DNA of 36,379 nucleotides from assembly GCF_029478095.1 (NCBI RefSeq), contig NZ_JAKOAV010000036.1, positions 1 through 36,379 on the forward strand, read 5' to 3'. Of this stretch, positions 2,432-36,379 are shown one piece after another (position 1 is the stretch's first letter; each line of letters begins with the position of its first letter). Source of the stretch: Pelotomaculum isophthalicicum JI. Lineage in GTDB: Bacteria; Bacillota; Desulfotomaculia; Desulfotomaculales; Pelotomaculaceae. A model generated the notes under the pieces. It did no database searches. It saw only the letters and a program-made list of their open reading frames with translations, and was not told the origin of the DNA. Position numbers and translations under genes: made by a program.

Positions 2432-4647
<2,216 letters not shown>

Positions 4648-32557: not shown

Positions 32558-32737
32558 TCGGCTATCGGTGAGGTAAATCTGAAGTTACCGCTGTAACATT
32601 ATCAGAGGTTTGAACCTGTGGCACACTTGTTTCGTCTAATTAAGTAGTTGAAAAACCAACCATATTATAAGCAACATAATTAACTTGGCGCGTCATTTCT
32701 GTGGAGCGATTTGATGCGAGCAAAGGGAGGGAAAAAT

Positions 32738-34711
32738 ATGAACTTGCGGAACTGGTCGGCCTGTATTGTTATAGCAGGTTTTGTCCTTGGCAGCTTCTTT
32801 TTATATCAGGGGGTGGCCGGGGCTGAGGTTGAAAAAAATAGTGCCGCGAGTAATCAAGAATCTGCGGGAGGCGGGGGGCAGTATGCAATAAGCCTGGAGC
32901 AAGCCATCCAAATAGCCAGGGAGGCGTTTGAGGTTCCTGGGGAACTGGACCAGTTCTCAAGCGGTTTCAGCCAGTCGGATCAGAATTCTTTTTGGGAGCT
33001 GCGATGGTACCGGATTAGCGCGCAAGGCGGCGAGATGAACGTAAGAGTCAACGCCGGCACGGGGGAAATCTGGAGTATGAATAAATGGCTGCCGCAGGCG
33101 CCCGGAGCGGGGTACCGGGGACTGCCCGGGTATACCAGGGAACAGGCGGAAGCCGTAGCCGCCGCCTCTGCCCGAAAATTGCAGCCTGAGCGTTTTGGGG
33201 AAACCAGCCTGCAGCCGGGCCATGACTATGTCCCGCTGTTGTCCGTTAAAGAGCGCGGGCAAATGGAATACAATTTTTACTATGCCAGGTATGTTGATGG
33301 TGTAATCTATCCTGATAACGGTATTAGTGTGGCGGTAAACGGGGATACCGGCGAAGTAATCCGGTTTGATTTGAACTGGGGAGACACGCGTGATTTTCCG
33401 CCGGCGGCCGGCAGGATCACCCGGGAGCAGGCTGAACAAATATTCCGCTCTGAATCAGCTCCTGAATTGTATTACTTTCGCCCTAGCATGCCATACGGCG
33501 TGGAAGTCCCCGTAAGACTGGTCTACAAACTGCCGGAATCCCAACGGCAGGTTATTATTGACGCTTTAACCGGCAAACTCATGAGTAACGAAACAAACTA
33601 TTATAATTACGACAAGCTATATAGCATTCCTGCTGGCGGTAAAGATAAGGTTAACAACTCTGTGCAACGGCAAGAGATTAAGCTGAACCCGGCTGAGGAA
33701 AACCAGGTTGATAAGCTGAAAAACCTGATTTCGAAGGATGAAGCCCTGAAGATAGCGAAATCCGCCGTGACAATTCCCATGAAATATGTTTTAACCAACA
33801 GCAGGCTGGAACAGGACTACCAGTTTAAGGAAAACAAGACCTGGAATTTTAGTTGGCAGGCCGGGGATAGTTCAGATAATGGCAGCATAGAAGTCTCCAT
33901 CAACGCCGTCAACGGAGACCTGGTGGCATTTAGTCACTATTATAGCAGTTATGAGGATTCTAAATCGCCGGTGGTAAAGTTAAGTGAGGAAGAAGCCCGC
34001 CGCGTAGCGGAAGATTATATCAAGAAAAAACAGCCGGGCAAGTGGGCGCAAGTGGTATTTAGTTCATTACAGCCCATATCGGGGCCGGTGATTAACCCGC
34101 TGGAGGAGCCACAGCCACGCGCATATGTTATTAACTATACACGGGTAACCAATGGAGTGAAGTTTCCGCAAAACGGGTTCTACCTGGAGGTGAACAGCGC
34201 TACGGGCGAAATAAATTCGTACCGGATGACCTGGTGGGACGTGGAATTTCCCGCTCCCGCGGGTGTCATCAGCTGTGAAGCGGCAGCGGACAAATACCTT
34301 CGGGAAGCCCCGCTGACGTTGGGCTATCTGCGGCTGTGGGCGCCAGAAAAGGTCTGGAAGCCGCGCCAGGCGAGCACAGTGCATCTGGTTTATTACCAGC
34401 CAAACCTCAACTTTGCCATGCTGGATGCTTTCACCGGCCGGAATCTTGATGAAGAGGGAAAGATAGTTGCTTCATCCGGGGAAAAAGAAAGCTTCAGCGA
34501 CCTAGAGGGCCATCCGGCCCGTGAGGCGGTGGAACTGCTGGCCGGCGCCGGCATAGTCGCGGGGGGTGACGGCAGGTTCCGGCCTGACGACCCTGTGACC
34601 CAGGCTGAATTAATCGCCATGCTGGTGAAAAGCTCCGGCCAGTCACCCGCGGCAGCTGTCGACGGCCGGGAACCGTGGTACCAGGGTTATTATGACATGA
34701 TGCGCCCATAA
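32738..34711 (+). pseudogene. Exported YcdB/PepSY-like protein with C-terminal SLH domain, interrupted by a group II intron
   Basis: ATG 32738 after AAAGGGAGGG gives MNLRNWSACIVIAGFVLGSF, a signal peptide (cleavage near VAGA). Two YcdB/PepSY-like units follow: ISLEQAIQIAREAFEVP with VRVNAGTGEIWSMNKW, and ISKDEALKIAKSAVTIP with VSINAVNGDLVAFSHY. More PepSY-like blocks then lead to an SLH repeat (FSDLEGHPAREAVELLAGAGIVAG, FRPDDPVTQAELIAML) and the start of a second. Native codons end at GAC ATG (34694-34699). The last residues to 34711 are intron-encoded. Without splicing the protein loses its remaining SLH repeats and would not attach to the wall properly. Confidence 0.85.
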
Positions 34712-35303
34712 GGCACTGTAACAGTGCCGCGGGCCATTAGGAAATCCGCCTTAAGCAAGCGGTAGGTTAAGGTATCAACGCAGGAAAATCCTGCAACCTA
34801 TCATCTGCCAACTTATCCTGAAGGGAAACCGGACGGGGAGTGTAGCATGTTGGTAAAGGCATAAGTCAGCGTAGCTCCAACGCTGCGACTTAGTAATGCC
34901 GAGATGAAACATTGTGTATGAGGATAAAAGCTGGATTGCTTAAATGATAGTCAGAGGTTGGATATATTGTAGTCCCCGGCGAAACGGAGTTGCAACGCCG
35001 GCATCATGGCAGCGGTACAGCCATGTCGTACCGCAGTGCTTGATACTCATGATGAACCAGCCGTAAGAGAACGGAAAATGACGAAAGTCTTATCCGACAA
35101 CACAATATGCTTTGTTCTAATGGTCTAAATGGGGACTAACCTAAACCGGAACGCCACAAAGATTGTGGCTATGGGTGATAGACCCTGAATATCCGGCAAG
35201 GAAGCAGAGCCCTCATAGTAGTCTGAGGACGGGAGAGCCGTCTACATGGCGAAGGGGGGCAGTTTACCTTTAATACTTTATAAGGAAAGGTGCGTGAGGC
35301 ACT

Positions 35304-36284
35304 ATGAGAAACCCGGTAAATGTATTAAAAAGCCTGACAGAAAAATCTCACGACCCGGAGTACAGATTCGAGCGATTGTATCGAAACCTGTACAATCCGG
35401 AATTTTACCTGACCGCCTACAAAAACATTGCACAATCGCAAGGAAGCATGACACCGGGCGTAGACGGTAAGACACTGGACAACATGAGCATGGGCAGGAT
35501 TGACAGAATAATCGCTGCAATCAAAAGCCATGAGTACCAGCCCAACCCTGCACGCAGAGAATACATCGAAAAGAAAAACAGTACCAAGAAGCGTCCGCTC
35601 GGGATACCCTCAACGGACGATAAGCTCGTGCAGGAAATCGTACGTATGATATTTGAAAGCATCTATGAACCCACATTTTCCAAGCAGTCCCATGGATTCA
35701 GACCCAACCGCAGCTGCCACACGGCATTAGCGCATTTGCAGAACACGTTCACCGCAACGAACTGGTTTGTTGAAGGCGACATCAAATCCTGTTTTGACAG
35801 CTTCGACCATCACGTACTCATAAACATACTCCGCCGCCGTATCAAGGACGAATACTTCATTGCTCTCATGTGGAAGTTTCTTAAAGCTGGGTACATGGAG
35901 CAATGGGAGTACAAAACGACCTACAGCGGAACACCTCAGGGCTCGGGTATCAGTCCGATTTTGGCAAATATATACCTCAATGAGCTTGACAAATATATGG
36001 AGGAGTACAAATCTGAGTTTGATGTCAGCGAAGGTCGGCGCAGGACAACGCCTGAATACCACAGTGCAGTGAACGCCGTATACCTTGCAAAACGCAAGTA
36101 TGCCAAAAAATGGAGTGCTATGGACAGGAAAGAACGTGAGTCGGCTGCCCGGCACATCAAGGAACTCCGAAAGAAAACACTTAAATTGAAGCCATTTCCT
36201 GTCTTTGACAAATCATTTCAGAAACTGCAGTATATCCGTTACGCCGATGATTGTGCGCCACGAAGGCGCATTTATGCAGCCTGA
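35304..36284 (+). pseudogene. Group II intron reverse transcriptase/maturase, interrupted after YADD
   Basis: The frame holds RT motifs 1-5: YNPEFYLTAYKNI, KKRPLGIPSTDDKLVQE, SHGFRPNRSCHTAL, VEGDIKSCFDSFDHH, TPQGSGISPILANIYL, and YIRYADD (residues 310-316; catalytic Asp pair). After YADD the expected Phe codon is cut after its first base at 36252, and the codons to the stop at 36284 belong to another intron. Normal members are about 600 residues with maturase (X) and often HNH domains, which would lie beyond the nested intron. The palm is long between motifs 4 and 5, as in clostridial members. It needs splicing of the inner intron to be made. Confidence 0.92.
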
Positions 36285-36379
36285 GTGGCTGCAAAGATGC
36301 AGCTATGCTGCACAGAAGATGAGGGTAGGCCCCTCGGAATCGCTATGCAGGTAGAGAGTCCAAGCCACCTTAAGCTGCC
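36253..36379 (+). mobile_element. Second group II intron nested in the reverse transcriptase gene (5' end)
   Basis: At 36253 the sequence switches from RT codons to GTGCGCCACGAAGGCGCAT, which begins with the GTGCG consensus of bacterial group II introns and has an immediate hairpin (GTGCGCC/GGCGCAT). The following bases, to the window end, show repeated short stems (GCAGCC/GGCTGC, GCAGC/GCTGC) of domain I. The rest of the intron lies outside the window. Confidence 0.82.

Follow-up and report, generated by a model that had tools for sequence, protein, structure and literature searches.

Group II introns nested inside other group II introns (twintrons) have been described in Thermosynechococcus, Trichodesmium, Porphyridium and Methanosarcina, as far as the portions of the papers available to us extend (PMC2882425, PMC4649490, PMC4476101, PMC4424553). 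Work from 2003 on Methanosarcina acetivorans, as recounted in the available sections of two of these papers, found introns that had repeatedly inserted into other group II introns (PMC4424553, PMC2882425). In Thermosynechococcus elongatus, TeI3 lies within TeI4 at a site between the first two ATG codons of the ORF, which leaves an alternative start (available part of PMC2882425). In the Trichodesmium twintron, according to the available text of PMC4649490, both introns splice in vivo, most probably the inner one first. The open-licence papers that were searched describe no intron targeting the YADD codons of reverse transcriptases (RTs), and the sections available of PMC3552965, PMC8919778 and PMC12350094 make no mention of such a target.

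The nested intron at the end of the window

The window, by which we mean the whole 36,379-nt stretch of Pelotomaculum isophthalicicum JI DNA analysed here, is an entire contig (C36), one of the 93 that make up a draft genome, and the features described for this region lie on the forward strand. Close to its end, the 5' exon of a host gene (32711–34703, within an ORF at 32711–34711) is followed by the 5' part of an outer group II intron (34704–36252), the boundary between the two being approximate. The host gene, which has an intact homologue in L176, reads by eye as encoding a YcdB/SLH-domain-like protein. The outer intron segment consists of the 5' part of the ribozyme, for which Rfam gave no D1 match in this segment, and the N-terminal half of an RT. 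This half (316 residues, 35304–36251) matches TIGR04416 (226.5 bits), RVT_1 (93.5 bits) and the RT of L139; the TIGR04416 score is below the whole-protein cut-off of 300, as expected because only half of the RT is present. Its frame reads through YIRYADD to 36251, with a single additional T at 36252.

The last outer RT codons (CGT TAC GCC GAT GAT T) end at 36252 and GTGCGCCACGAAGGC starts at 36253, the letters from that position reading GTGCGCCACGAAGG. The 127 nt that remain before the contig ends (36253–36379) are the first part of an inner, class D-like group II intron, with a start similar to those of its relatives and a match to RF01999 (group-II-D1D4-2) at 36321–36379 (45.7 bits) that is broken off by the contig end. 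The YADD active-site codons occupy 36240–36251. IBS2 (T-TAC-GC, 36239–36244) and IBS1 (GAT-GAT-T, 36246–36252) are the predicted partners of EBS2 GCGUAG and EBS1 AGUCGUU, respectively, a pairing that was read in relatives. The initial annotation described an RT frame intact through YIRYADD and then a group II intron start one base into the next codon, with which the sequence agrees. It also held that the insertion splits the catalytic motif; on the contrary, the four YADD codons are whole and the cut falls one base into the codon that follows. The reading of the window's end as a nested intron is supported.

Continuation of the twintron on a second contig

Contig C13 of the same draft carries, in order, the last 26 codons of an IEP, an inner domain V/VI, an RT frame, an outer domain V (C13:1049–1147, by Rfam) and the rest of the host gene. 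The IEP remnant is 68% identical to a relative's IEP over 25 residues, and the C-terminal half of the RT comprises 288 residues. The RT frame reopens as TT ATC ATC GGC..., the T at 36252 and this leading TT together forming a Phe codon (T-TT). An inner domain V/VI and a return of the RT frame with the two remaining Phe bases had been anticipated beyond the window, and both are present; the contrary outcomes, no domain V or no return of the RT frame, were sought on C13 and neither occurred.

Two uninterrupted homologues span the join. The host-gene homologue in L176, from the same genus, gives an 80% match to the C36 side and an 85% match to the C13 side, with both matches in one frame and separated by 18 nt, and a single RT in L139 matches the C36 half at 62.5% (residues 1–319) and the C13 half at 53% (residues 321–570), back to back. 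C36 and C13 are therefore two sides of one twintron, whose ends display a nested intron and the reappearance of the outer sequence, with the interior (the EBS elements and most of the IEP of this copy) absent from the assembly. An ORF-less inner copy was considered, given that no contig covers the interior and that the last ones of the draft measure ~1.05 kb; the last 26 IEP codons with which C13 opens establish neither an ORF-less nor an intact copy.

Other copies in the genome and the integrity of the junction

The same first 126–127 nt of the inner intron stand at three contig ends (C36, C46 and C42). Four matching 3' ends, each with a domain V of 58.2 bits followed by ...CTACTCACC, are found on C13, C52, C31 and C63, and the RT frame reopens after the intron on C13, C52 and C31. 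On C46 the interruption falls exactly after Y-A-D-D plus T in another RT, with 32% identity over the match; C46 and C52, which both have L145 as best match, probably belong together as the halves of a second twintron. On C42 the inner intron is antisense, after GCCGACGACA, in a gene that appears, by eye, to encode an acyl-CoA synthetase, and C42 and C63, also by eye, are probably the two sides of this copy. The site of the antisense copy, GCCGACGACA, at the start of C42 and the end of C63, is an off-target look-alike of the ADD codons. C49 was tried as the partner of C31 and rejected: its RT match (query 33–259, with one stop) continues past the YADD region, which the match of an RT half cut there would not do. 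The outer intron's 3' end occurs once more at positions 1–125 of C70, where other sequence comes after it, judged by eye to be a gene for a secretion-type ATPase.

Near its start (40–123) the window holds a domain V belonging to another group II intron. Matches of this kind (43.0–45.6 bits) occur on ten other contigs, several at contig ends, so that many contig breaks seem to be intron repeats. An assembly chimera joined at repeat ends would fit a window that stops inside a repeat and an inner intron whose interior is missing; moreover, the last contigs, C93 and C92, are 1,053 and 1,054 bp long, and shorter pieces were thus probably discarded. We nevertheless consider this explanation next to negligible, as both RT junctions recur with 100% identity in a second genome from this species. 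The contigs of that genome end elsewhere in the intron (at 74–75 nt), so the junction is not the chimera of a single assembly. The same architecture is also found in complete records, namely a plasmid of Alkalihalophilus pseudofirmus OF4, Pelosinus fermentans JBW45, Blautia parvula and Singulisphaera acidiphila.

Recurrence of the insertion site

Relatives found by DNA similarity likewise have the intron start directly after Y/F-A-D-D codons, and the annotation of the complete A. pseudofirmus OF4 plasmid shows the element as three pieces: an RT half, ltrA and another RT half. The DNA query held 13 exon bases, so the loci that it found lean towards the site, and they were kept out of the count of 55 flanks given next. 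That count came from a site-blind sample, selected by IEP similarity alone as the best 80 of at least 553 relatives among the stretches scanned; one viral contig was added and L108 was dropped as a duplicate of L043, leaving 80 loci. An HMM of the intron 5' end (from GTGYG) matched 78 of these, with no match in L097 and L157. The junction was resolved in 60 of the 78 loci, corresponding to 55 distinct flanks, and GCN-G[AG]Y-GAY-N stands at the site end in 50 of the 55, a proportion that overstates the share in this sample since, among the 18 loci without a resolved 5' end, L158 included, EBS1 identifies ten as YADD-type (nine by script, and L146 added by eye) and eight as other. By site or EBS1, 65 of the 78 loci drawn from the best 80 are YADD-type. 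The exact string GCNGAYGAYN ends 48 of the 55 distinct sites in the same sample, compared with 10 occurrences in 138,804 positions of these loci's upstream flanks, a background of 7e-5 per position. L158 was left out of the site counts because its start was miscalled.

When all searches were pooled, the window's genome included, 66 distinct sites (distinct 40-nt flanks) were obtained, 60 of them ADD-type and six unrelated to ADD. ADD-type sites with RT homology on a flank make up 49 of the 66. In L113, which is also ADD-type, the frame after the intron looks RT-like and the 5' flank has five residues. Ten ADD-type sites of the 66 carry no RT evidence on their flanks, some with little flank (L096 and L053 offer little to judge by); the remainder, C42 included, look like other genes that happen to spell the motif. 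Given these ten, what is targeted is a string of nucleotides and not the RT gene in itself. As the sequences are related, the counts do not represent independent events.

Splicing most often completes a Phe codon (25 of 51 distinct ADD-type loci with both sides), and excision restores the frame in the RT cases that are resolved on both sides. Within the order, the junction pattern is present in 9 of 113 genomes, those of the window and its conspecific included. Seven more distant class D-like plasmid introns (IEP 53–61%) were also inspected: four, that of S. meliloti GR4 among them, are at other sites, which their EBS1 fits by eye, one is ambiguous and two have no resolved start. A Sulfobacillus plasmid intron (71.7%) sits in RYADD with one EBS1 mismatch by eye. 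On this comparative evidence, the window's twintron is one case of a general pattern across many bacteria. The nested intron reported in the initial annotation is real, and it is no one-off: the site is the usual target of an intron lineage.

Predicted guide pairing

In the relatives, EBS1 AGUCGUU pairs with GAY-GAY-T and EBS2 GCGUAG with N-UAY-GC. EBS1 lies in the loop of a domain I hairpin about 254 nt into the intron; of 70 sequences, 68 to 70 preserve any given one of its five stem pairs, and compensatory changes are seen. Of the 60 [YF]-A-[DG]-D loci, which have 54 distinct 60-nt flanks, 53 carry AGTCGTT as EBS1 and 52 carry GCGTAG as EBS2; L096 is a non-YADD row in this pairing table and counts as ADD-type among the distinct sites. 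EBS1–IBS1 pairing extends over 7/7 positions in 45 of the 60 loci and over 6/7 in the other 15, so the pairing characteristic of group II introns is found, at six or seven positions, in 60/60. Position −1 is unpaired in 13/60. The EBS2 pairing is imperfect, with −14 unpaired in 29/60 and −12 mismatched at the Phe sites (10/60).

The third positions of the Tyr and both Asp codons vary in the target and face a nearly constant G in the guide: position −2 is T in 32 loci and C in 28 (guide G in 58/60), position −5 is T in 36 and C in 24 (59/60), and position −11 is T in 38 and C in 22 (55/60). A guide G opposite these positions allows either synonym to pair. The fourfold-degenerate third base of the Ala codon (−8: C in 21, G in 16, A in 13, T in 10) sits in the gap between IBS1 and IBS2. 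Apparently, the relatives share the site through a guide that matches the RT active-site codons in either synonymous spelling.

Members at other sites were compared with their own EBS1, allowing a free shift. L120, L148, L152 and L156 reach 7/7 and L135 and L052 reach 6/7, and the YADD-type introns reach at most 6, 4, 5, 6, 6 and 6 on L120, L148, L152, L156, L135 and L052, respectively. The predicted EBS1 covaries clearly with the site in L120, L148, L152 and L156; on L135 and L052 the YADD-type introns also reach 6, and the comparison is thus not discriminating there.

The lineage's own RT as a potential target

The RTs of the family itself mostly have RYADD followed by Ala, Gly or Val, and 55 of 56 own IEP genes carry G at −1. 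Position −1 pairs with the first base of EBS1 in 3/56 own IEP genes versus 47/60 actual targets; the sequences are related, so the p value of a Fisher test on this contrast does not describe independent events. A G at the start of the next codon, which mispairs with the first A of EBS1, may spare the lineage's own RT in part. The difference is suggestive of self-avoidance by −1 mispairing, with shared descent of the Ala, Gly or Val residue as an alternative source of it.

A single ORF-less copy was seen, on the reverse complement of L047 (689–1345, 657 nt), with EBS1 CGTCGTT and thus a C at the first base. It is preceded by an RT N-terminal half (41% to the family) and followed by an own-family IEP C-terminal half (90%), and was perhaps produced by deletion through recombination between nested copies, or by an assembly effect.

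Intron class, outer introns and distribution

Group II features of the inner intron include the GUGYG start, the RF01999 match in the window and RF00029 domain V matches on C13, C31, C52 and C63. In relatives the intron is about 1.86 kb long and encodes an RT/maturase of 414–415 residues. RVT_1 and GIIM were found in the two relatives' IEPs that were scanned, and no endonuclease domain was scored in these two. The relatives' IEPs are 56.7–56.8% identical to IEPs in Sinorhizobium meliloti GR4/2011. Thus the relatives combine RT and X domains, no scored endonuclease and apparently closest similarity to class D IEPs, 26 IEP codons being visible for the window's copy, and the inner intron is classed as class D-like, probably a sub-lineage related to RmInt1. 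The usual 3' end of a group II intron is AY. With the start fixed at GTGYG and the frame restored, 3' ends in this lineage read ...CACC, TGCT or CGAC, for example in L079, L141 and L127, and many members end in CC or CT.

The outer introns were compared at 17 chosen loci with RT flanks, using Rfam (two of the first 19 were omitted for size). The inner D1–D4 region matches RF01999 in 17/17. Where scored, the main model for the outer D1–D4 region is RF02001, RF02003, RF02004 or RF02005, with RF01998 beside RF02001 in four loci. The full order of outer D1, inner D1, inner domain V and outer domain V is seen in 10 of the 17 (L082, L086, L087, L091, L105, L109, L121, L138, L139 and L147); the other seven are without one or both outer matches, in some because the stretch ends.

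These data bear on the possibility of an accidental twintron, in which an intron landed once in an RT ORF, the composite then spread jointly and the YADD position has no meaning. Twintrons are known in bacteria and archaea, by the available parts of PMC4424553 and PMC2882425, and some genomes contain several copies with the same flank (L127–L130, L109/L110, L141/L144). A single landing is nevertheless very improbable in our view: the 66 distinct 40-nt flanks remain after removal of duplicates, the outer introns match four main Rfam D1–D4 models at an identical position of insertion, the genome studied here has two divergent outer RTs as well as an antisense site in another gene, and the guide sequences are complementary to the site.

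A tree of 66 IEPs was built by a quick method, with L047 and the duplicate L083 omitted and L158 and L146 outside the label count. Its records are labelled Bacillota, Acidobacteriota, Planctomycetota, Pseudomonadota, Actinomycetota and Methanosarcinaceae, among others, although many are MAGs whose small contigs may be misassigned, so that the phylum labels may be wrong for some; named isolates among the carriers include members of the Bacillota and the planctomycete Singulisphaera. On the tree, the six members at other sites require 5 label changes, close to the number obtained with shuffled labels (mean 5.7), and retargeting therefore looks scattered.

A proposed homing mechanism and its implications

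From the site, the pairing in relatives, the frame and the recurrence, all read from sequence, we infer that the inner intron splices, moves and reverse-splices, that the two splicing steps follow an order, and that the outer intron depends on inner splicing. With high confidence, we propose a mobile class D-like intron that is guided by EBS1 and EBS2 and homes into the R-[YF]-A-D-D codons of RTs, above all those of other group II introns. The excised inner RNA would recognize its site by placing EBS2 on N-UAY-GC and EBS1 on GAY-GAY-T, and would reverse-splice into the RT gene one base after the second Asp codon, the process being completed by its own or a relative's IEP. With G facing the Tyr and Asp third positions and the Ala third position left in an unpaired gap, one guide could read the synonymous spellings of a motif that presumably cannot change in an RT without loss of activity. 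In class D introns, retrohoming proceeds without an endonuclease, probably with priming at replication forks.

Until the inner intron is removed, the outer RT gene would be closed and translation past YADD barred; inner splicing would restore the outer RT frame, so that the outer element stays viable. Since the RT ORF of group II introns lies in domain IV, according to the available part of PMC3552965, the core of the outer ribozyme need not be broken.

The inner intron might instead be a selected regulator, whose conditional splicing switches the outer RT to the benefit of the host or the outer element. Its position makes RT production conditional on splicing, and wherever an RT case is resolved on both sides, excision returns the frame. 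We judge this role unlikely, because look-alike sites without RT evidence (10 of 66, one of them antisense) and near-identical copies within one genome have the appearance of proliferation. The proposal of an intron that homes into RT genes can be extended to a widespread lineage parasitic on group II introns, with a guide tuned to the genetic code, its own RT partly spared and splicing that gates the host's RT and mobility; for this broader picture we put the chances at about even. If it is true, targets could not escape by synonymous mutation at the Tyr, both Asp and Ala third positions. An RNA-guided mobile element could thus make an invariant catalytic motif its home, with G-U pairs absorbing the synonymous spellings, and every relative of the element would be a potential host. 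The lineage offers a clean system for studying degeneracy-tolerant guide pairing, self-avoidance and parasitism of one element on another, accounts for group II RT genes annotated as broken at YADD (OF4 and Sulfobacillus plasmids), and may represent a type of element that influences intron proliferation in genomes.

Comparison with known systems

Like RmInt1 and other class D introns, the lineage has an IEP that combines an RT with a maturase domain and in which no endonuclease domain scored. The target of RmInt1 is an IS element, whereas the lineage described here targets RT genes. A copy in S. meliloti GR4 (L192) apparently follows CATCCATA, with EBS1 matching by eye; we take the S. meliloti copies, L192 included, to be class D RmInt1.

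As in T. elongatus, to judge from the available part of its description, an intron of one family occupies a conserved site in the ORF of another family. Unlike in T. elongatus, the site here comes after the catalytic codons, and a protein with the whole RT domain thus needs splicing. The Trichodesmium inner intron, by the available text of PMC4649490, lies in domain I of its host intron, whereas the inner intron here lies in the RT ORF.

Two MAG contigs labelled Methanosarcina or Methanosarcinaceae (L092 and L094) carry the present lineage after RYADD or RFADD. In L094, from a MAG labelled Methanosarcina, domain V matches surround the RFADD insertion at 55–132, 2076–2151, 2984–3060 and 3202–3278, an array that recalls the nested arrays described for M. 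acetivorans. The targets in the 2003 study of Dai and Zimmerly, going by its title, were reportedly related intron ORFs. The Methanosarcina work comes closest as a precedent and possibly concerns the same lineage: as in the available accounts of the nested introns of M. acetivorans, the lineage here appears to home repeatedly into other group II introns. A lineage combining an active-site target, degeneracy-tolerant guides and apparent self-avoidance was not found in the open-licence literature. Twintrons as such are known, and what appears to be new, relative to the literature searched, is a lineage aimed at active-site codons. In contrast to the account for M. acetivorans, it is represented here by many bacterial records and several types of outer intron, with guides that pair to the active-site codons themselves.
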